A stretch of DNA of 64,000 nucleotides from Brachyhypopomus gauderio (taxonomy: Eukaryota > Chordata > Actinopteri > Gymnotiformes > Hypopomidae). The position numbers and the translations under genes were made by a program. Positions 3,476 through 25,164 of this stretch are shown in pieces. The notes below the pieces were generated by a model. That model did no database searches. It had not been told where the DNA came from and saw only the letters and a list, made by a program, of their open reading frames with translations. How positions within the stretch are numbered: the stretch's first letter is position 1; each line of letters starts with the position of its first letter. The stretch covers positions 10,729,373 to 10,793,372 of the forward strand of contig NC_135222.1 of the NCBI RefSeq assembly GCF_052324685.1, read 5' to 3'.

Positions 3476-5689
3476 AGTAACAATGCTGAGAGACCCTGTA
3501 GTTAATTCAAGAATCTAGACTACACAAATGCCAACCTGATAATATACCTTATGTGCTGTGTAATGGCTTGGTTATAGGAGTCTCACAGGCACAAAATGGT
3601 TATTTCTTCCAATATACTCCTAGGCATTTTGACTTCTTAGTGGACACCTGGGCAAAATGAAGGTCCTAAAGTGAAATGGGACCAAGATGTAGTCACAAAC
3701 AAAATGCGAGGCTGAGCATCTCTCCAGATTATGCTTCTTAGTAGTTATTTGTTTGCTGATTGTCATTGTACTCCACGAGAGCTGGCTCTACAGCCAGCAG
3801 ACCCCACTTGTACCCGCGTGTACTGCTTAAACAGTACATTGTACTGTACACATTTTCATCAGCAGCTTCATAAGGATTCCATGGACTGCTGACTCAATCC
3901 CCCCATCCCACCAAAGCTAAGCTATGGCTAAACCCGCATTGACAATCCACTCGCTATGACTCAACACAGAGGTGGATCCAAGAGTGCAACATCACGATTA
4001 TGACAGAGACATGACTCAACAGTAACATGGCCAACCATTAGAATGGTCAGAGAGAACTAAAAATAGTGCCAGGTTTGAGAGAAATACAAACCAAAAATAT
4101 CCAAACATAGTGGCTTCTGCAGCCCACCACTGTGGTCAACCTTGTTTTAGCCAAGAGCCAGGACCTTATGGGTCCTTTGTTTCATTCAGCCCTTACCAGA
4201 AAAAATAAGGTTGACTATCACAGTAGGTGGTTTTCATTATTTCCACTCAAAAACTCCACATCAAAACTTCTGTTCATCTTAATCAGACACAGATACTTTC
4301 TTGATAATTTCATTGAGTATAACACAGTGTTTTTTTGTAACCGTAGTGGAAATTGCCCTCCTAATAGTAAAGCAACATATTAGTATATCTAAGGTCACTA
4401 GCAAGGTGAAACTGCGTTTTTCTGCTTCACTGATCTGTCTGTCATGATTTTACACTGGGGCTACTGTATTGCCCCACCCCTTTCCTAATTGAAACCATCG
4501 AGACAAGTTCATGTTGTCCTTGAGATGTTGATTAGCAATGAGAGGTTCATATAGGTTTGCAACCTAGCACTGAAAGAGTTGGTATGATATATATATTTTT
4601 TGTTTTTGTTGTTTAATGTATATTTTGCTATCAACAACAAATCCTTTTTCTGTTCACTTCTGGTCATTGTTTTAGACATCCTCACCTGAGCTGCAGTCTG
4701 TTTCTGATGTAGTTAAGCTCCAATTTCATGCTCCTAATATGTCATTTTAAAGAAAGCAGCTTGCTTTGATGGGCCTTCAGTATTCACAACTGAGTGGGAG
4801 CCAGGCTTGGAAATCTATGCACATGGATTATTCAACAAGGAAATCTGAAGCAAAGAAGTGCACAGTGTACAGTACTGGGATAGGTTTGTTTTGGCCCTGC
4901 AGGTATGATGGAGATAATTGAATGAATGAAATAATAGCAGTAGGATAAGGAACTACAGAATTAGGATGATGCACATTCATTTCATTAAGTCATAGTGGTT
5001 GGTGAAGAGGCTAAAATATATTAATAAACAGAAAACAATAAACATTTTCCCAGGTCAAAAGTGACATAGGCATGGATTAGGTTGTAGAGCACCAATTAAT
5101 ATTCAAAGAGTAAAAACAAAAAATTGTGTAGTTATCAAAAGTACATTTTGAGTCCAATAGCTAGCGTGTAGCATTTTATAAAGCTATTTGGTGGCTAGCT
5201 TCCATTCTTTATTAGTCACACTTACATGTAAATCCACTATTTGATGCAAATTTTGGTAACCAAACTGTTTCTGTTGTTGGCTGGACAATACCTGTAAAGA
5301 ATACGTTGCTACATTCAGGAACTAGAACAAGTCTAGAAAGAATACTAGAGCACCTATGGGGCAAAACTATAGGACAGAATCTGGTTTTATGGGTGTGAGT
5401 AATTTGATCTCAGGCAATACACACTGAACACTCACCCTTTGATAGATGTGTACATCAGGAATATTATCTTAGATCTGCAACACAGGAAATCAGGAAGAGA
5501 GAAAACGAGGCCCAGAACAAAGGAAAGAATCAAAGGGAACTGAGAATAAATAACACTGAGAACAAACAAATGACTCAGTCGATTGAAGAGTATAATTATG
5601 CTACTCAGGAGGACCTGTTTTGTATGCTATTGGCTAAAACTGTCGGTTTCTGAAATTGTCTTATGTGTCTGAATCTATCTTTTGTTTCT
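3476..5689. other. Non-coding stretch, nothing assigned
   Basis: A+T-rich DNA with short open frames that have no recognisable domains. No repeats with clear ends and no splice-linked exons could be supported. Confidence 0.3.
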
Positions 5690-7078
5690 CAGTGAACAAA
5701 CTCCAGGTAAGAGATTTTCAATTCGGCATTATTATAGGATTCCACAAAGCAGGTTTTTGTATCGATTTGCCATTGTCAACTGAATGTGCACGTTTTGTGC
5801 AATTGTCTAGGAGCAAGAATCACTCAGCCATGAAGTGGTTGACGACGCAAACTCACAAAGTGGCGACTCCCCAAGCGTCGTCATCGCAAAGAGATTTTAT
5901 GGAGCTGGATGTGTATCATTTTTGTTGTAGCGCCGGTGCTGTCAGTTTTTAAATTTTAAGTAGCACAGATACATATGTTATAGTTCATATAGGAGTACAT
6001 TTGAAATTTGTTTTATCATGGGAACACAAATCATATATAGCTCCATACACGGTGAAACATTAGAGGCTGAAGGTGACACATCCGGCGTTTAAATGAGTTC
6101 CTTAGAAGGCATGCAAAGGCATTGGCTGGTTGAGGTAATTTAGTACAGATGCTGTTTCGTTCTTTCTTATTGTGATAAGCTTCATACACTACAGTTAGTT
6201 TAGCTAGAGCAGTGGGGGTGGGGAGTTGGGAGGAGGGGGTGTGTTCAAATGTAGGCTACCAATTAAAGTAAAATAGTCGCATTTTGAATCCGTGACTTCA
6301 GTAGGCTACTATGTCTGCTCACACATGGTAGGGCCACTCGTCCCAGTTCTCTTGCTATCTGTTATCCATCTCCATATTACATTTATTTACTTAAAGTCTA
6401 CTTAAGTCTTTTTAAAGACTTACATTAGAGTCTTAAAGACTCCCTATCTCGGTCCTAGTTATTTTTTAACTGCTAGGTGTACACCTGCTATCCTGCACCG
6501 TGTTGCAACACGTGATTTCATATTTATGTTTGCACAGAATATTTCCAATCGCAAACATGAGCAAAACTGTTACAGGCCTGGCTCCGTGCAGTGGATTTAC
6601 ACGTAATACACGCCTCTGCTGAACTCTGGAGCGATGGAAAGGTATCCTCTGGAATGGTGAATCACGCTTCACTGCCTAGCAGGCTGATAAATGAATCTGG
6701 ATTTGGTGGATGCCAGGAGAAGCTACCTATCAGAATGCCAACAGTGTCAACAGTAAAGTCTGCTGGATGTGGGCCAGTTTTTCAGGGTTTGGACTAATCT
6801 TCCAGTGAAGGATAATGTTAATACTAGAACATACAAAGGCATTTTAGACAATTATATGCTTCCAGTTTTGTGGCAACAACTTAGGAAAAGCATTTTCTTG
6901 TTCCAGCATGACACTGTCCAAAAAGACTGGAAGCCTTCCCAGAAGAATCCCAGAGTCTGTTACAACCGCAACATGGGGGCCAACTCCATATTAATGCCCA
7001 TGTTTTTGGAATGGGATGCTCAATAAGCTCATAGAGGTGAGATGGTTAGGTGTCCACATACTTTTGGCAATATAGAAT
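5690..7078 (+). mobile_element. Tc1-like transposon relic in two pieces
   Basis: Two segments match parts of one fish Tc1-like family. The first (about 5690-5890) resembles the N-terminal DNA-binding region (DFQFGIIIGFHKAG, then aattgtctaggagcaagaat). The second (about 6560-7078) is the catalytic and terminal part: LHVIHASAELWSDG, ESGFGGCQE, LDNYMLPVLWQQ and FLFQHD, then the non-coding tail ending gtccacatacttttggcaat. Roughly 670 bp of unrelated DNA separates them. In the second piece the text jumps from FLFQHD straight to the C-terminal SLPRR-equivalent (ctggaagccttcccagaaga), so about 300 bp of catalytic domain is deleted. Several frameshifts make it inactive. Confidence 0.72.
5891..6559. 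other. Insert between the two Tc1 pieces, unclassified
   Basis: About 670 bp with no recognisable coding content. It includes a G-rich patch (gtgggggtggggagttggga, about 6211) and a run of related phrases built on ttaaagtc/cttaaagact near 6390-6440. It may be an unclassified insertion or replaced DNA. Confidence 0.3.
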
Positions 7079-13804: not shown

Positions 13805-13924
<120 letters not shown>

Positions 13925-13946
13925 TGGGGGAGAGGCAGTGCATTAC

Positions 13947-14655
13947 CCCAGGCAAAAAAAAAGTGTACTGAAATATACTTAATTTAAGTGCACTTAATAT
14001 ACTTCAGTGCATCATGATAAATATACTAAAAATGTGCTATTTTCACACACTAACTTTGTACTTAAGTGTGCTGTATGCATGTTTTATTACTACTAAAATT
14101 GTACTTAAACATAATTAAATATACTCAACTGTACTATTTTGAGACACCATTAAGTCTATTTAAGTGCACCTATAGTATACTTTCTCCCAGGCAAAAAAAG
14201 TGTACTGAAATATACTTAATTTAAGTGCACTTTCAGTGCATCATGATAAATATACTAAAAATGTGCTATTTTCACACACTAACTTTGTACTTAAGTGTGC
14301 TGTATGCATGTTTTATTACTACTAAAATTGTACTAAACATAACTAAATATACTCAACTGTACTATTTTTAGACACCACTAAGTCTATTTAAGTGCATCTA
14401 TAGTATACTTTCTCCCACCAAATCTTTATTTTAAAAACATACTTTGTGTGAACTTGGAGTATGTTTAAATCCACCTTTAAGATTACTATTAGTATATTAA
14501 TAAAACATAATAAATGTTTTATTAAGCACCATTGGTCTTTGTAATGGCACTATAGCATACTAAGAACATATTTATTACACAATAGCACATTTATCATAAA
14601 TGCATTACAAAATATAAATGTAAGTGTACTTTGGTGTACTTTTTTCACCTGCGGG
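13947..14655. repeat. Left subterminal repeats with about 235-bp tandem duplication
   Basis: Unit 1 (13947-14185) and unit 2 (14186-14413) both begin cccaggcaaaaaaa and run in parallel through gtgtactgaaatatactt, tgcatcatgataaatatact and tatagtatactttctccca. A third partial start follows at about 14414. The block ends with ttttttcacctgcggga, similar to the right terminus of the whole element. It may be the duplicated left end of the 9-kb transposon or a small non-autonomous copy of about 709 bp sitting at that end. Confidence 0.85.
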
Positions 14656-16069
14656 ACAGCTCTACTGTGTGTTAGGTATTGAATTTAACTAATTACATCA
14701 ACACAATGCCCATATATATATTTTAAAGTGTTTTTATTGACTTATAAAATGCTTTGTGTATTTCCACAATAACCAAACCTTTTAGATACACTGAAATACA
14801 GCACAGACAAGTGTTGTGAAGTGTAGCTTGTAGTGCTGTATATTAGATCCAAACAGAAACCTAAACAGTTGCTCTTGTATTCAGAACAGTTCTGTGTCAA
14901 ATTCACAAAATTTACATAAACAAAACATAACTTAATAACTACATAACTACACTACATTTTATACTGTTTGTTTTTGTACACAAAACTCTCATTATTGCAT
15001 TTTCTTCTAATGGCTGCTCTCACTTCTGACACACTTGTACCAGGAAACTCCAAAAGTACAGCATCAGTACAAAAAGAAAATAACAAAATGATAAATAATG
15101 CTTGTGAACTTTGTAAGGCATATACCACAAATTACACATTATAAAACCTAAATAAACAAGTGACAAGTGATGAGTATTAATACAATGCATTCAAATGACT
15201 AAAACTGCTTTGACAATAGCTCAGGCATTGGAACAGGCTAGGGTTAGGGTTAAGGTTAGAGGTATCCCAATTGCATGTCCTGTAGCAGGCAGTTCTGTTG
15301 TGTTAGCATTTTTTTAAAGATTTGTTTGCAGAATGGTAAAACAGCCAACAGTCCTTCTCAAAATGGTTTGTGCTAATTCATAGGCATAGTATTACCTTTT
15401 TTGTAGATTTATTGTAGATTTATTCAGTTCACTGGTTATCTCAAATGGTCTAAAAACACTGGTTCTGGAGAGCTACCTTCTTGCAGAGTTTAGTTCCGTC
15501 CTGTATCCAATAGGCTATCCTGCTCCTTACTTAAACCAAAACTGTGTAGCAAATTGTGGTTGTAACTAGGCTCTGAGGGAGGTAGCTCTCTAGAACCATA
15601 GTTGGTCATTATAAAAACACCAAAATGAAGAAAAATCAAAAATACATACTAACAAGGGCACTCAGCTTTTCCGGGTCTAACTGATCCTTTGGTGTTCCAA
15701 GTGCTGAATTTCCAGTTAGACTTGAGGAAGCCAACACATCCCTCCCAAAAAGAAGCATGGCTAATTCTTGGGTGAACAGTGTCCGGTTTAATCTTCGGAA
15801 GCAGCTTTTGCTGACCTGCACCCTTGTGTTGCCCAGGAAAATCTGTGTCCAGAAAATATATTTACATCCTCTTTAATTTTCTATGGATTTATGTAACAGG
15901 ACATAAAACATCTGCTTAGAAAGTCATCACATTTTAAAAAACACAACCTATGATGAACAACACCTTATCACAAATTACTGTGTCATGATTCATTTAAAAT
16001 ATGCAAAACTGCTAAATCGGTACATGAAAAATTAAGTGCACCTTTACCTTTTTCATTTAGGAATTAAGT

Positions 16070-16507
16070 TTGGCCAAAACTACGTCATGCAACAGGACAA
16101 TGATCTCAAGCACACCAGCAAATCTACAATAGAATGGCTAAAAAAAAGAGAAGAACCAAGATGTTGCAATAGCCACTCAAACTACAGACCTCAACCCAAT
16201 TAAAATGGCAGGACTTTAAGAGAGCTGTGCATAAACAAATGCCCACAAACCTCAATGAACTAAAGCTACGTAAACGTGCAAAGAACAGTGTCCCAAAATT
16301 CCTTCTGAATGATGTGAGACTTCTAAAATCATTCAAAAAAGATTTCTTCAGGTTGTTAAATGCTCATTGATTCATGTGGTGTACTTCATTTACACACATG
16401 GCTTCTGCCCTTTTGCAGTTTTTTGTAAATAATAACTTATTGTAATTTGTCATGTTATTGATCATCTGAGATTTTATTTTCCTAATTTTATCACCTATGG
16501 ACCAGAT
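16070..16507 (+). mobile_element. Tc1-like transposon, 3' fragment
   Basis: The fragment begins in the catalytic region (VMQQDND, HTSKSTIEWLKK, where the QQDND aspartate is a catalytic residue of the family). It passes through aggactttaagagagctgtg and ccacaaacctcaatgaact, and ends with the recognisable tail ggtgtacttcatttacacac and ttgatcatctgag. The 5' part of the transposase is absent and the reading frame is broken. It lies in the intron between BEN exons B and C and is younger than the host transposon. Confidence 0.78.
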
Positions 16508-16517
16508 ATTAATAATT

Positions 16518-16810
16518 ATAATAATAATACATTTTATTTAATGATGGCGCCTTTCATGGCACTCAAGGACACCTTACAACAGTTAATAAATTAAAATCAG
16601 ACAAACAGATCTACATATATTCAAATACTTTCAGCCAGATAAAATATAAGACACACAGGGAGAAGTGAAAATGAGGAGTCAGAAGTATGCTAATGTGAAT
16701 AGGTGGGTTTTAAGCAGAGATTTGAAGGTAGATAGACAGTCAATATTGCGGATTTGAGTAGGAAGGGCATTCCAAAGAAACGGGGCAGAGTAGCTAAAAG
16801 CTCCCACAGT
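16518..16810 (-). mobile_element. LINE 3' end (C-terminal reverse-transcriptase tail)
   Basis: On the minus strand, 16,683-16,808 translates without a stop as GAFSYSAPFLWNALPTQIRN, then CLSTFKSLLKTHLFTLAY. This is the C-terminal tail typical of many fish CR1/L2/Rex1-like ORF2 proteins. It is followed by a short 3' region (ggtgtccttgagtgccatga, then aataaaatg) and an attattata tail near 16,518. It is a 5'-truncated retrocopy in the same intron as the Tc1 fragment. Confidence 0.75.
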
Positions 16811-17141
16811 AGAAAAAAAAACATATTTAGCTACTTATCAATTTATTTATATAATATCAACCTTTGGTTTGCTTCCATCCACTGAGGTGGTACACTGTGC
16901 AACCCCTCTCTTCTCAGCTGCCATCATCCACATGTCCTCATTCCTAAGAAAGGCCTTTTTTCTCTATCAAGACCTTATAGTTGTCTGTGAATATCAAACA
17001 TAAAAGGTAAGACAAAATATCTACAGCATGTCTTTTCAGTAACTTTGTCAAGATTCCATAAAAACGTAATTACATATAAAGCAAGGTATTTACAGGTAGC
17101 CATAAAGTAAAGTCTTAGTAACAAACCTATTCCTTTCTACC

Positions 17142-17144
<3 letters not shown>

Positions 17145-17195
<51 letters not shown>
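17145..17195. repeat. (AT)n microsatellite
   Basis: Pure AT run of about 51 bp in the intron between BEN exons A and B. Confidence 0.95.
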
Positions 17196-17200
<5 letters not shown>

Positions 17201-17369
17201 CTTCGTGTTCAGATAGGAAGCAACACTGATTGTGAATCAATTTCAACTGCTCTTGTGCAAATGGAACAGACAACAGGTAGAAATGAGAGATTTTCAACTG
17301 ATTTCAAAGATTTTTATTCATTGAGATCTAGGATGTGTTATTTTAGTGTTCCCTTTATTTTTTTTAACA

Positions 17370-17370
<1 letters not shown>

Positions 17371-17446
<76 letters not shown>
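17371..17446. repeat. (TA)n-(CA)n microsatellite
   Basis: A TA run to about 17,431 followed by CA to 17,446, also in the A-B intron of the BEN gene. Confidence 0.95.
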
Positions 17447-17447
<1 letters not shown>

Positions 17448-18209
17448 TATATAATGTAATAGTCTATTAATCACAGTTAATTCATTGGTTGGAGGTGGGG
17501 GTTATCTTTACAATTACTTCAAGTAAAATGGAGTTTATAGTGCTTCTCATGTGTACCCAACCACGAGAAGCACCGTTCTTAGTTTTAAGAACGGGTGGAT
17601 TTTTTGTCTGCCATAAAAACATCCTTCGTGTTTTCTAAGCTGTGCACACAATTATAAACGAACGTTTACTTGAAGCAATTGTAAAACATTGCATGTATCT
17701 TTACTGGAAAACACGGAGGCTTTGGCCGACCAAACGCAACTTCCAACGGGAGTACATTTCATGGCGGGGGTGACATGTTCTCACGTTTGGTTATTGTAGA
17801 AAGCATATCCATTCAACTATTTTATGGCGTGTGTCAATTCCAAGACAAAAATCGCGAGCGAGGAAAATCACTTCGCGCAAGGAAAACCGCTCACTCATAC
17901 TAGATAGTTTACCTCGCTCGCTATTTTAGTCTCAGAATAGGTATGTTAGGTATGAAGACTAGAAGCCTACAGGAATGCACTTATGAGAATACATACCTCC
18001 TAGTAATAGCAGTTTTGCGGCCACCTTCTTTTGTGGGTCTTTCCTGTTAGCCTGGTACACGTCAATCCACCCGTCGTCGATCCAAAGATCCGGCCTGCTA
18101 ATACCTGAACTAGCTGCTTTGTGTACTGGAGTGTCACAATGTCAGTACTTTCGACATGAACTGATTTGTCCCTGAAATCAAATATTCCGAACTTAAACGG
18201 TGCCGTTTT

Positions 18210-18419
18210 CTACTGGAAATATTCCCCGAACTGTACCCGACCTTATGATACACTTACAGCTGTGACTGAGTTAACAAATAAATCCTAAGTACCCATGAAC
18301 ACATAGTCTGCTGTAATTGGCTCTCTGTATCTTTAAAGTGATTGGTTGAAATCAAACGAGGACGTTTAAGATACTATGCGCGCGTTTTTATGAGAAAAAT
18401 ACAACGCTTTGCAGCAGAC
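18210..18419. promoter_or_regulatory. Candidate bidirectional promoter of the transposon
   Basis: About 210 bp separate the last open BEN codon (minus strand) from the transposase ATG at 18,420. Two divergent genes with no other room for promoters imply a shared regulatory region. Nearby DNA (17,700-18,100) is richer in CpG (cgcgagcgagg, cacttcgcgcaagg, gcgcgcg) than the flanks. No certain TATA box was identified. Confidence 0.4.
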
Positions 18420-21400
18420 ATGGCATCTAAAAGACAATACAAAGAATATCTACTGGATGAGTCGAAACAACCTTCAAGAGCTACCAAACACAGACGGATT
18501 GCAAAAGAGAAAGAGGTATTTCATGTTTTATATATCTTCTCTTATTAACAACAACAATAATTATGAAAATAATATTTGTATTATATTGTAATATGAATCG
18601 TTAATTTTGACCACAAGGGAATGTTTTGTTCATTGCAGAATACTTCATACAGTAGAGAAAATTACAAGAAATACCTGTATTGTGCAACCTCAGACACAAA
18701 CACAAAAAGAAAGGTCTTAGAAGAGGTATGTTATGTTTCCATTTACAAGAATACAAATTATGGATGTTTTAATTAACGTATTACACATTGACATTGTAAC
18801 TGCATTCCTTAGATTCCACTTTCATTTAATGGAGAAGAAAAATCTTCTTTGGAGGCATACTCAAAACTCATTCCCACATGTGACATGCAGGTAAAATCAA
18901 TAAGATAAAATTCAATAGCAGGAGATTTAATTGTCAGTATCTGTGTGCTGTTTCTTAATTTTATTAGTACAGAGAATCTGCAAAATACTTTACTCTTAAG
19001 TTTTCATTCATTCAGAATTGTATTCGTTTGTTATTATATAAAGATTGCTTAATACATCCATGAACTGTCCCATGATCAGAATGTTCCAGATGAAGAACCT
19101 TTTACAGAAGAGGGAGCAAGCAGTCAGCCATATGATGAAAGCATAATAAGAAAGCATCATGTCAATTCAGCAGGAGAAGAGCAGCAGCAGGAAACACCAA
19201 ACAAAAGTTCATCAGAGGTACTAAAATGTCAGAATTTGGAAATATGTAGATTCATTCATGGGACTGTGTTGAATTGTTGTTGCATTATTGTCATTCCAGT
19301 AAGATTATATGAAATGGGAATATTTGTGCATTAATTTTCCCTGTCATGTGTCAGAACACTGATAAGTACGGTCCTTGTATTTTAAAGCTGTGTGTCTTTT
19401 CTTAAAATATGATATAATCATGTAAAATTGCTGTTTCTATTTCATTTGACAATGTTCTATTATGTTGATTGCACATATTATGCAGCTAGCCAGAGACGAA
19501 GAATGCAGACAGTCCCACTCAGTGCTGGAATTGCCACAGACAGCATACCCAGACAGCACTTTCACTTATGCAAGAGGGGATCAACAGGATATGCAAACAG
19601 AAGTACAGGTAACAGTTACTCAATGAAGATTTTTAAATATAACTGAAGCTCTAAAAAAATAATAAGCTGTCAATAGTATGAAAATTGATCTAGAAATAAA
19701 GGTTATTATTATTACTATCATTAATATTCCCATAATAATGATATATTAATTGTCAACATCAACACTAGTTTAAATATTACAGATTTATAAATATTTCTTA
19801 CAGGAATTATATGAAACGCAACCAGAACACATAGACTCTGCCACAACATTTGACCAGCAAGAGATTCCAAAGAGCAAGGTTGTTAGCTTTTATTATCGTA
19901 TGTTTTGAGTACAAAAGCAGTCTTTTTCTGTAGATGAGTTATTTAAAGTTATTACTATGTAATATCTTCACAGACAGACCCTTTGGATGGAGATGATCTT
20001 GCATATCCTGGAGCACCACTGACAAAAGGACAAAGTTTGCTCTTACTCATGTCTTATGTACTAAGGCACAATCTGACATCGGTGGCACTGGAACATCTAT
20101 TAAAGATTTTCAATGAGCATTTACCAGGCATGGCACCAGTGACCACATATCTTTTTCACAAAGCTTATGGACAGTATGGAAATTATCAACCACATTTTTA
20201 TTGTCCAGCATGTGGAAACTACTTAGGGGATAATACAAGTGAACTACAATGTAGTGCTTGTCATGCAATAACTGATTCCGAGAGCTGTCTTAAAAGTGGG
20301 TGTTTCTTTCTAGTGCTTAAATTGGCTTCACAGCTCAAAACATTGCTTGAACAAAAACAGACAAGTTTAAACAAAGATCAGCTGTCTGCAGATGAGATAT
20401 CAGATATACAATTTGGAGAAGAATACCGTAAGCTAAAAGATTCTGGTGAATTGGGTGAGGATGACATATCTTTAATTTGGAACTGTGATGGGATACCAGT
20501 GTTCAAGAGCTCAAAGTATCAAATCTGGCCCATTCAATGCCAAGTCATAGAACTTGAACCTAAAGAACGTAAGGCAAATATCTGTCTTCCGTGCCTCTGG
20601 TTTGGGGAGAAGAAGCCCAACATGTTAACATTTCTGAAGCCATTTGTAGATGAGCTGTTAGTTCTAGAAAGAGATGGCATTAAGTGGAAAGACTCAGCAA
20701 ACATAGAGCATGTCTCCAAAGTGTATGCTCTCATATGTAGTTCAGATTCAGTTGCTCGCCCACTTCTAAGAAACACCAAACAGTTTAATGGGTTTTATGG
20801 ATGTGATTTCTGTTATCATGTTGGAGGTGGTCCTTACATAAACAAAGCCCCAAAGCCACATCTCAGAAATGAAGCTGAGCACTTTCATGATGCAATGGCT
20901 GCAACACCCGAGAATCCTGTAATGGGAGTAAAAGGACCTTCATTATTAATGAAACTCAAGACATTTCAAATGATAAATGGATTTGTTCCAGAGTATCAGC
21001 ACTGTGTCTGCCTTGGTGTGACCAGACAACTAGCCAAACTGTGGTTTGACTCAAAACATCATGACAAAGAGTGGTACATAGGAACAAAAGCAGACAACAT
21101 TGACAAAGAGCTCATTGCAATTAAACCCCCAGTTGAAATAACTAGAGTACCACGATCTGTGGCAGACAGAAAATATTGGAAAGCATCAGAGTGGAGGTCA
21201 TTCCTCTTATTCTATGCTCTGCCAACATTGAATGGGGTTTTAGTGAAGAAATTCTGGAACCACCTTTTTCTGTTAGTGTTTGCTATGCACATTCTTTTGG
21301 GACAAAAAGTGAAACACAGTGACATTGAATTAGCGGAAAGAGCTCTCAAAAAGTTCACTATGCTGTTTGAAAAGTTATATGGAGCAGCAAATATGACATT

Positions 21401-22148
21401 TAATGTTCATCTACTGACACACATTGCAGCAAGTGTGAGGAATTGGGGGCCTTTGTGGGCCACATCAACCTTTTCCTTTGAATCGTTTAATGGCACTCTG
21501 TTACATTACTTCAGTGGAACCACACATGTTCCTGAGCAAATAGTTAAAAGATTTCTTTGCTGGAGGAGTCTAACACAAAAAGCAGGAAAGATAATGGCAG
21601 ATGCTAATGATGGGGTTAAAAACGTTTTTTCTGATCTCATAAACAACAAATTATCAACCTCTAATTCATCTAGCCTAAATGAAAATGTCAGGGTTTTTGG
21701 CACACCCTGTCATGGCAAACTGTCTGCGTTACAAACAATTGCTATCAAAAACTTGCTGGGTGTTACCGTCAGACACTGTGAATGTTATCACCGTTTCATT
21801 ATAAAAGGCATACTCTATCATTCAAGCAGTAACAGAGGTCTAAAAAAAAGAATTAACTCAACAGTGGAATTACAGGATGGAAGATTATGTAGAATTCTTA
21901 GCATGGTAGTATTCAAAAGACAGCATTTATCAATGCACTGTGTACTGGTAAAAGAGCTCATGAAGACTAGTAGACAGCTCTGCAGGGATGGTCAGTTGAA
22001 CATTGCTTCCACTTTTGTATCTGAAGTGTTGGAATCCAAGAATGTGTATGCAGTGCCCACTGAACTGTTCTACAGGAAAGCTGTTTTGGTCCAATCAAGA
22101 GGCAACGAGTATGTTATTCCTCTCCCAAACAATGTAGAGAGAGATTAA
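18420..22148 (+). CDS. CMC/EnSpm-like DDE transposase, seven exons, about 923 aa
   Basis: This enzyme would cut and paste the element. Exons: 18420-18515, 18639-18725, 18813-18890, 19080-19217, 19486-19608, 19804-19878 and 19974-22148. All are phase 0 with GT/AG borders (the exon 6 donor is a weaker AAG-GTTGTT). The start MASKRQYKEYL follows the divergent promoter; an in-frame ATG also exists at 18,390. In the last exon, counting from the TTG at 19,983, there is a zinc ribbon (C74, C77, C90, C93), a first aspartate in WNCDG (D169), a second in CSSD (D255), CDFC (C274, C277), HLLTH (H476, H480) and FSFE (E500). This order matches the D, D, CxxC, HxxxH, E pattern of the CMC superfamily. The motif usually read as D-x-M-H appears as EYQH (337-340). 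No stop or frameshift was found. AATAAA follows at 22,186. Exon-exon joins are inferred. Confidence 0.85.
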
Positions 22149-22612
22149 ATAGTAACTGAAGAACTATAAGAAAAACCTTACAAAAAATAAATTTCAAGAT
22201 TGTCCTGTTATATGCATTATTTATTATTTATTATTATTATGTATTATTAGAAATGCTGGTGACCACACAGGCTTTTAGTGTATTAAAAAGTGCTGTATGT
22301 TGCTGTTGTTGTTATTGATCCTGTTTATTCCAAATTCATTTTTGTATCACATAAAAAAATAGGTGACTTCAATTTAAAAAAATAACCCTAAGGTATATTT
22401 GAATAAAAGTAGCTAACTAAAGATTATTTACATTTAAAAATAAAAATGGATAATGCATTTATATCTTTTAGCACTTTACTATTTTACTGATAAACTGGTG
22501 GAGTATTTCAAAACATTAAACAGAAAAGGTCAGTTAAGGAAATGTACTTTTATTGTATATTTGTAAACACATCAAAGCACACTTTAAAATAATGTACCAA
22601 ACGTGCACTAGG
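22149..22612. other. Transposase 3' region
   Basis: Untranslated and spacer DNA between the transposase stop and the right subterminal repeats, with AATAAA at 22186-22191 and short TTATTA-rich runs. No coding content. Confidence 0.5.
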
Positions 22613-23005
22613 GTAGTATATTTATCTGAATACACCAAAGATCAATTTAAATATGAATTCAAATTAGTGTACTTATATGAAGTACACTGAAGTACTGCTG
22701 AGATAAAATGTACTTGCAATTATTGCATTGGAATTTGCACTTAAAATAATTCAGCATTATTTTTTAAGTAGTATACTTTCTCTGAATACACTAAAGATCA
22801 ATTAAAATATTAGTTCGAATTAGTGTACTTATATGAAGTACACTGAAGTACTTCTAAAGTAAAAATGTACTTGAAATTAATGCATTTCCATTATATTTTA
22901 TTTGTACTTATATTAAGCACACAAAAAAGTAATGTACTTGAAATGTATTAGCTGAAATTAAAATACATTGGTAGTACATTAAAGTATACTTAATTTTTAC
23001 CTGGG
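22613..23005. repeat. Right subterminal repeats and terminus of the CMC element
   Basis: A 155-bp period is visible. Units start at 22,613 (gtagtatatttatctgaata) and 22,768 (gtagtatactttctctgaat), and both continue through tagtgtacttatatgaagta and cactgaagtact. Further aagtacatt/aatgtactt words lead to the end ttaatttttacctggg. Subterminal repeats of this kind are usual transposase-binding arrays in CACTA-type elements. Confidence 0.82.
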
Positions 23006-25164
23006 ACACTATGTTTCTCCAGTGAATTATATTCCTTGACAAGACTACTAAGTGATGTAAGTTTCAGCCAAGTTAAAAATCTTTTGGTTTAAAAAAACAA
23101 AAACAAGTTTGTGCCACAGTCTGATGGTCTTTTTCTTTCTCTGGAAGCTACATTTAAGAAGCTCACTGATCCCAGATCAGTATTCCACATAACAGAAAAG
23201 TGCTGTTTCAAGTCTGATCACATAATGGTGCTGTAATTGGCTGCATGCAGGTGTGTTGACTTAGTGTAATCCACAAATCTCATGGTGACTGGCCTCAATT
23301 ACGCAGGATTGGTTCCGTTTCAGGGGTGTGAAGCGATTAGCTGTATCACAAGTTGCATTGGGACTATAAGATTGGGGAATGTAGGTATTATGTGAAATGG
23401 TGTGTGCTAGTCAGATATTCCAGAAACCTTGACTGTGACAGATTTTTTACAAATTATAAGAAAATATTCTGTCTAAAACAGAAGGTAAATTTAGCTTAAT
23501 AGGTGTTTTAAACAAATGATGTAATGGCCATCTGGGTGGTGCGTCATGACCAGGCTGTTATCCTTAATAACCCTCCTATGTAATGTCTGTTTTATTCAGT
23601 TTTCTGGCTTTCCCAGAGTCTCAGGCCACCTGTGAGTTTGTACCCTTCTCAAGGAACTAGGACCATCATTGCCCATCAAGTGTGAAAAGCGCTTTGTTTC
23701 TGTAGAATTCATGTGAATGGCTATTCGTTGTTTGATTAGACCTATTGACAAGTGTTTCTTAATATCTCACCCTACATAGACAAATGTTTGAAGACATAAC
23801 ATATGCACACAGTGTTTGTGTACTCATTACTCAATCAAAACAATGTAACTGTTTAAAAAGACTCATTTGACTGTAGGCTCTGCTAAATCTGAACACAGGG
23901 ATTGAAATGATCCTGGTGTACAGCAGCCTTCTATGTCTTAAAGATACCGTCTGTCCCATTAGCCCTGGTGATGAAGTGCTTCCAGACTTGGAAAAATGTT
24001 TTCACAAGAGAGAAAGCAACAGTTACTCACACTTAAACAAGCAAACACACCTGCCTCCCCAGAGGCTGGATCTCCACCTGAACCTCTCTGTTCTTTGCCT
24101 TTTATCGCAGCAAGTCAAACACATACATATATCCTCTCCCCACACACATTTCAGGACCATACTAGTCACACATTAAACATTTCATCCCATTACATGCACA
24201 AAGACCTACGAATGGCGGGTAATTCTGTGCCCGGCCGAATAAACACGGACTGCACTGACTCGTTTGTGGAGCAGCGGGGAGTAGTGTTTCAGTACCGATG
24301 TCACTTTCAGCAGTGACAAACCTGCTGCTCTTCCCTGGCCCTCAGAACCGGCCTGCATTTCTCACTGAGATATGCATGGCCTTTCTCCTATTTTATATCA
24401 AGTCATGGATAAGACAGATATGATGCTGGAGTTGTGAACAGGATGTTTTAAAGGCTGCAGGCTATGGCACAATCACATCCCTGCAGGGAAATTTGAAACG
24501 AGGAGCTTCTAATATGGAAGCGCTGGTATCCTTGGTCCTCGTTCTGCGTGTAGTACATGCTTTTGATTTCTTGGTGTTGAACAGTGGCAGGGCAGTGTGA
24601 CCCTTCGTGACAAACAGGTGCAATGTTATTTAATGTGCCTGATTACTCGAAAGCCTTCTGGCTTCTGGTTCATGGCCTCACCATGCAGCTGACCTGAAAT
24701 GCTAAGAAACTCTGGGATTCATTGTCATCACAGTACACAGAGCATAGTAACAAAGCGCTGTGCTCTTATGCAAGTAGAGATTTAATTTCAGCTGTTTTGC
24801 AACCATTGCACAGAATATAGGTTAAAGAAAAAATAAATAATTCACACATTTTATTTATGCCTGAAAAAAGAAAGTAAAAACATACTTTTTACAAGGTTAC
24901 TGTATTATTAAGGTCCAAATTTGGGTCTAAATAATGGAATTGGCTAATATAGTGTCCAGTCTGGGTGTTGGGCTTTACTCTCATCAATAATCTATGTCTG
25001 GAGTCTCCTCCATATACCCATTAGCTTTGCTGCGTAACTCTGTGCCTGGGGGTAACACTGAGGCAAAGAGCAGCATTTCAGCCTCCGATTGGCAGATTCT
25101 ATGGGAAGCATAGGGGCATAAATAATGTTAGAACAAAGAAAGCCACTTTGAAGGATATGTGATT
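23006..25164. other. Non-coding stretch, nothing assigned
   Basis: Right flank of the transposon. No repeats with clear ends, and open frames around 23,900-24,300 lack domains or splice support. Confidence 0.3.

Follow-up and report, generated by a model that had tools for sequence, protein, structure and literature searches.

Recurrent head-to-head pairing of transposase and BEN-domain genes in a clade of CMC transposons in the genome of Brachyhypopomus gauderio

Introduction

Transposons of the CMC group (EnSpm/CACTA, Mirage and Chapaev) encode a DDE transposase in which C(2)C and H(3-4)H motifs lie between the second D and the E, and their termini are in most cases, not strictly, CA..TG (PMC12730594). 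The plant element En/Spm needs two proteins, the transposase and TNPA, the latter of which binds the subterminal repeats and is also a suppressor, according to PMC2613891. Here we analyse a 64,000-nucleotide stretch of the genome of the knifefish Brachyhypopomus gauderio (NC_135222.1, positions 10,729,373 to 10,793,372; hereafter the window). It carries a CMC-type element with a transposase gene and, diverging from it, the remnant of a gene for a BEN-domain protein. We report that the two genes are paired head to head at most loci of a clade of related transposons in this genome.

BEN proteins are host chromatin and insulator factors and are also found in some viruses; Bsg25A, Insensitive and BEND6 bind DNA. 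Among the matches listed in a search of the open-access literature by titles and the beginnings of abstracts, with Repbase outside its scope, there was no CMC element with a BEN-domain gene. The term BEN is likewise absent from PMC12730594.

Results

We searched the 796.5-Mb assembly (G000, in which the window is C12:10729373-10793372) for matches to the window's transposase. At least 64 matches were scored, and manual merging left 50 loci. By transposase identity to that of the window these were split into 33 loci of a near clade and 17 weaker ones; C1:31054147 (33% identical) was placed in the near clade because its BEN exon matches that of the 40% lineage at 90%. BEN exons were searched with P0141, a protein of Metynnis hypsauchen, and with peptides from exons of the 40% and the 55% lineage. 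Fifty BEN positions, not every exon row, were compared with the transposase loci; the chance estimate given below used 29 of the 54 rows of the P0141-based list and all 18 of another.

A BEN exon lay head to head with the transposase within 25 kb at 29 of the 33 near-clade loci, and BEN took no other orientation at any of the 33. The paired loci comprise 5/5 of the window family, 6/6 of the 55% lineage and 18/22 of the others, which are 33-65% identical to the window's transposase. At a thirtieth locus, C184, BEN was recognized by profile only (PF10523, 22.0 bits, just under the cut-off). With queries from the near clade, a head-to-head BEN exon was found at none of the 17 weaker transposase loci (31-35% identity), one of which has a BEN exon 9 kb off on the same strand. 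This absence may partly reflect low sensitivity, because all BEN queries stem from the near clade. The chance that a BEN locus falls within 25 kb of any transposase locus was roughly estimated at ~0.003 per BEN locus, using 53 loci because four matches on C43 were kept apart. No BEN profile match at E≤0.05 appeared in 20 replicates of shuffled reading frames, and there was none in the remainder of the window.

The divergence of BEN was correlated with that of the transposase (Mantel r 0.90, with 18 of 720 permutations as high) across six lineages that form two deep groups, a small sample. In the anchovy Engraulis encrasicolus, a BEN gene (LOC134456946) and a transposase gene (LOC134456944) are both on contigs of 57,050,747 bases, which suggests that they are neighbours.

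The sequence-only reading of the window had assigned the BEN gene to the transposon, and had named as evidence against this either transposase copies that lack a linked BEN gene or a pairing unique to this site. The pairing instead recurs genome-wide in the near clade. Because the pair persists in related elements, and is still readable in one young family, the comparison indicates that it is genuine and long established in this transposon group. The clade probably carried divergent genes for a DDE transposase and a BEN-domain protein ancestrally.

The readable pair is that of the 55% lineage. Its copy at C20:3966410-3980961 has the ends CCCTTACC...GGTAAGGG and a 2-bp AA duplication, and holds both genes inside the terminal repeats: a transposase with an open frame of 737 amino acids (aa), and a predicted BEN gene that starts with ATG, has its exons ordered as expected, with splice donors and acceptors, and ends in a stop codon. 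The whole BEN gene, read in this one copy, appears intact. The six copies of the lineage are near-identical (L009 differs from each of the five others by 0-2 mismatches over 4.6 kb), and all six carry an identical, open BEN exon. BEN thus lies between terminal repeats flanked by 2-bp duplications in two lineages, this one and that of the window.

No transposase match within 25 kb was found for 12 of 22 BEN loci (29 of the 54 rows of the P0141-based list) and for 5 of 18 in the other list. The BEN-only loci that we read descend from the same elements by deletion of the transposase. L038 belongs to the window family and has lost most of its transposase gene, window position 18413 being joined to 22109. 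L039-L041 derive from the 60% lineage (matched pieces 93-100% identical), with part of BEN missing and no transposase detectable in the 7.8-9 kb read. They are unlikely suppliers of intact BEN, as they lack the counterpart of L030 ~4976-6588 with a middle exon, and their BEN match begins at residue 290. Further BEN loci with no transposase within 25 kb are on, for example, C114, C16, C25, C2, C30 and C31.

In the window element the starts of the two genes are 183-213 bp apart, close to the ~210 bp of common upstream DNA of the sequence-only reading, and each gene has the AATAAA that this reading assigned to it (Table 1). Judged by its sequence, BEN is a separate divergent gene outside the transposase transcription unit. 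In the 60% lineage, the putative BEN exon at L030:5390-6250 is split by an insert with the ends CAGGGTTCGTAC...GTATGAACCCTG, hAT-like by eye.

BEN homologues numbered 9 at first, and an alignment query raised this to 42 at E≤0.001 among 7995 scored candidates. The 31 that carry an organism name are all from fish, and BEN is present at more than one locus in both cod and the goby Mugilogobius. The anchovy BEN protein P0009 is in the query alignment and absent from the 42 matches. Across lineages BEN identity is 19-51%, with the exons still recognizable, and the protein seems to follow one plan, in which a conserved N-terminal region and a conserved middle motif precede the BEN domain at the C terminus. 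Against a PF10523 cut-off of 23.2 bits, the joined exons of the window scored 31.2, P0130 36.0 and L030 34.3; scores in the 38-40% lineages were just below it (20.8-22.0). The nearest solved chains were Bsg25A (E 3.1e-8), which we take to be Elba1, 4ix7 (5e-8), presumably Insensitive, and BEND6 (7.7e-5). A structure prediction for P0139 with alignment A3 had a mean predicted local distance difference test (pLDDT) score of 44. A weak 25-residue match in viral contigs (E 1e-4) was taken as chance.

For the window, a BEN-domain gene running leftward had been proposed. The domain is there on the minus strand (PF10523, E 2.6e-7 with joined exon translations), but the gene is broken in its start, frames, middle exons and last acceptor (Table 1). 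Damage was judged against P0141 and the older genomic copy L038. Compared with these, ACG replaces the start ATG at 18206-18204, and there is no recognizable exon for P0141 residues ~113-269. All five copies of the window family are identical there and so carry the same broken gene, and for this copy the earlier reading, a transposon with its own BEN protein, is not supported as far as a full protein is concerned. The window element would accordingly count as having a single gene, the second surviving as a fossil, unless some short product is still made from the remnant. L038 itself retains the start codon, exon 1 in an open frame and a middle exon; its exon 2 is frameshifted and its last acceptor is without AG.

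Within the introns of the remnant, window positions 16050-16810 hold insert-like stretches, identical in all five copies. By eye, 16050-16400 resembles what we take to be a Tc1/mariner fragment, and 16540-16810 (minus strand) presumably the 3' end of a long interspersed nuclear element. The surviving exons are 79-92% identical to P0141, a high value for remnant exons that may reflect horizontal transfer or a recently shared source.

The rightward DDE transposase gene described earlier is upheld. It has seven exons with no stop or frameshift seen, and its last exon, a 724-aa open frame, is 100% identical to P0010 (LOC143508558), a protein of B. gauderio. The seven-exon product has 923 aa and the annotated P0010 933. 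In P0010 the catalytic residues are D381, D467 and E712, and C486xxC489 and H688xxxH692 supply the C(2)C and H(3-4)H motifs; these residues are invariant in an alignment of 12 proteins, of which nine are fish proteins and the remaining three come from a tick, a sea urchin and an ant. Target-site duplications, 2-5 bp in CMC elements, were 2 bp in all five window-family copies, one of them within a TA run. By signature residues and duplications the proposed CMC class holds. The termini depart from CA..TG, being CCCAGG..CCTGGG in the window and CCCTTACC at the left end of the 55% lineage. Pfam Transposase_21 (tnp2) matched the window's transposase at E 1.6e-5 with 24.6 bits, below its cut-off of 28.6, and the relative P0067 (38% identical) with 32.7 bits. 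NCBIfam profiles gave no match for P0010 or P0139.

The window element begins with CCCAGG at 13947 (CCCAGGCAAAAAAAAAGTGTACTG) and ends with CCTGGG at 23005 (TACTTAATTTTTACCTGGG), as expected for the inverted ends of the ~9-kb unit originally outlined. The family has five full copies in the genome, the window copy included. The four others are 99.5-99.9% identical to it, their alignments begin at 13943-13947 and end at 23005-23018, and the terminal motifs were found in all five. Aligning full copies, as had been suggested, gave these consistent ends and 2-bp flanking repeats: AC in the window, AA, AA and TA in three further copies, and TA/TA at L022, where the duplication is not sizeable because the flank is a TA run. 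The aligned copies differ only in two TA-repeat tracts (in length, and in 3 bases at the edge of one) and in one substitution at 19673. Their flanks differ, and they are therefore separate, very recent insertions. On these grounds the window element is, as far as its sequence tells, an animal CMC transposon of EnSpm/CACTA-like type that has moved recently. A long (TG)n repeat adjoins it at 13807-13924, and a (TA)n run directly follows copy L022.

The left 474 bp matched the genome at nine places. Five are the full copies; the others are a single site at C1, two fragments at C5 and one of 66 bases at C6. This query revealed no swarm of small derivatives, in a search that skips very common words and leaves their rarity unproven. 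Three CMC lineages look young in this one genome, the window family, the 55% lineage and the 40% lineage, whose copies L017, L018, L019 and L021 (G000:C2, C5, C14 and C18) show 99.4-99.6% identity.

The subterminal repeats of the earlier description are real. Counted on both strands, AGTRYAC occurs 16 times in the left 724 bp, 13 times in the right 485 bp and 5 times in the inner 7851 bp. The 29 occurrences in 1209 end bases are far above the averages of dinucleotide shuffles, 1.2 (left) and 0.6 (right). The right end has 23 in 500 bp (shuffle 1.05) in the 55% lineage and 10 in 671 bp (shuffle 0.48) in the 60% lineage. Repeat arrays are present at both ends in the window and the 55% lineage.

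Table 1. Features of the window element and its flanks (window positions)
Feature	Positions	Strand	Basis
Complete CMC-type transposon, 9059 bp	13947..23005	+	End motifs in 5 copies; copy alignments
Left target-site duplication AC	13945..13946	.	Flank comparison of copies
Right target-site duplication AC	23006..23007	.	Flank comparison of copies
Left subterminal region, ~230-bp unit twice in tandem, AGTRYAC-rich	13947..14417	+	
Right subterminal region, 88-bp repeat (22621-22708, 22777-22864), AGTRYAC-rich	22521..23005	+	
Transposase gene, 7 exons, no stop or frameshift seen	18390..22148	+	P0010 match, GT/AG, motif positions
Transposase exons	18390/18420-18515, 18639-18725, 18813-18890, 19080-19217, 19486-19608, 19804-19878, 19974-22148	+	
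AATAAA behind transposase gene	22186..22191	+	By sequence alone
DNA shared upstream of both divergent genes, putative promoter	18207..18389	.	Sequence
BEN remnant exon 1, conserved N-terminal region; ATG to ACG, 1-bp deletion	17997..18206	-	tblastn to P0141, L038 comparison
BEN remnant exon 2, frameshift in A-run	16862..16984	-	Comparison with P0141, L038
BEN-domain exon, 9-bp deletion relative to L038 and relatives	15650..15842	-	Pfam PF10523
Last BEN exon EFPGTSVSEVRAAIRRKCNNESF, without AG at expected acceptor	14952..15065	-	Sequence comparison
AATAAA behind BEN remnant	14733..14738	-	By sequence alone

Discussion

The anatomy of these elements, a transposase with a dedicated DNA-binding protein and repeat arrays, would fit the model of plant TNPA with chances that we judge about even. 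By that analogy we propose, with a confidence evenly divided between yes and no, that BEN acts in a TNPA-like manner within the CMC clade that carries the two divergent genes. The BEN protein would bind the AGTRYAC arrays near both ends, and this binding would serve the assembly or timing of excision, or would regulate the shared putative promoter. A copy with a dead BEN gene could still jump, because a diffusible BEN protein could be supplied by other elements or be dispensable.

Several observations weigh against this proposal or the readings on which it rests. The window family has spread with a broken BEN gene, and since its five copies did so recently, an element can do without an intact BEN gene in cis. 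In cis, BEN is therefore not required as TNPA is said to be; supply in trans is possible. An intact donor within the same family was not found, because L038 has the exon-2 frameshift and no AG at the last acceptor, in a search that left out the copy at C1:5843954. The BEN remnant may give rise to a short product, and the repeats could be bound by the transposase itself. Within the right 500 bp of the 40% lineage AGTRYAC does not occur at all, although BEN is present, and the 64% locus has only 4 in the 631 bp of its right end, against a shuffle mean of 0.48 and a shuffle maximum of 4; a BEN protein that binds the repeats would have had to change its target. Finally, no BEN was found at three of the 33 near-clade loci (C20:13631596, C5:21970000 and C56:1196221; upstream DNA was read at C20:13631596 only, 8.2 kb). 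The question raised earlier, whether both genes recur head to head in other copies, thus has a positive answer for 29 loci, or 30 with the C184 profile match, and a negative one for these three.

The burst of copies with a dead BEN gene would be compatible with BEN from other elements, with an optional BEN or with a restraining one, and the data cannot separate these. If restraining, BEN would be a transposon-encoded repressor or copy-number regulator whose loss released the window family into its five-copy burst. That the family is very young and its BEN broken agrees with this, as does the repressor and insulator activity of fly BEN-solo factors (PMC6911014). The 55% lineage, however, is about as young with its BEN exon open in all six copies, so that a readable BEN does not prevent spread, and we regard a repressor as rather unlikely. 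We give the same low credence to a BEN protein that counters silencing and keeps the chromatin or promoter of the element open, by analogy with what has been proposed for demethylation-linked accessory proteins. The divergent genes do share an upstream region, and BEN proteins act on chromatin; some fungal EnSpm elements carry TET/JBP genes, which have been proposed to help them evade methylation-based silencing (PMC12730594). Yet a broken BEN did not stop the window family from spreading.

BEN might also be a passenger, caught once by an ancestral element and carried unused. Its repeated decay, in the window family and in transposase-deleted derivatives with partial or frameshifted BEN, would suit such a gene, but a useless gene would be expected to have decayed everywhere, whereas BEN exons are recognizable across lineages and a 55% lineage copy retains open frames, splice sites and a stop codon. 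We consider a passenger improbable. That the BEN exons are a host gene or a nested separate element, paired with the transposase by accident, is very unlikely given the recurrence of the pairing. One could cite for it the insert-like stretches in the BEN introns and the BEN loci with no transposase match within 25 kb (12/22 and 5/18); those read, however, are transposase-deleted derivatives, BEN lies within terminal repeats in two lineages, and it is head to head at 29 of 33 near-clade loci and in another orientation at none.

Returning to a TNPA-like BEN, our wider suggestion, which we hold at slightly less than an even chance, is that an animal CMC clade, whose transposases have drifted to ~36% identity, is defined by a co-inherited BEN gene playing the part of TNPA, and that BEN chromatin factors and the accessory proteins of selfish DNA share an evolutionary pool. 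BEN as the standing partner of a vertebrate DNA transposon would be an animal counterpart to the two-protein CACTA system of plants and, for chromatin research, a mobile supply of BEN genes. Young families with readable and with broken BEN genes occur side by side in the knifefish, a natural experiment.

With other CMC elements the window element has in common the DDE transposase with C(2)C and H(3)H, short terminal inverted repeats, dense subterminal repeats and 2-bp duplications; it differs in its CCC..GGG ends, where CA..TG is usual, and in the BEN-domain partner gene. A transposase joined by a second, here putatively DNA-binding, protein and subterminal arrays recalls plant En/Spm. There, TNPA comes from the same gene by splicing (PMC2613891), whereas BEN is a separate divergent gene. 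The same source reports TNPA as absolutely required, whereas an intact BEN gene is dispensable in cis. Harbinger (Nuwa) elements, whose second protein is of the Myb/SANT type, likewise combine a transposase with a separate DNA-binding protein (PMC12730594), but their transposase superfamily and DNA-binding domain are others. The BEN-solo proteins Bsg25A, Insensitive and BEND6 have the C-terminal BEN domain in common with the protein described here. They are host regulators, whereas the transposon BEN is multicopy and has a conserved N-terminal region of its own.

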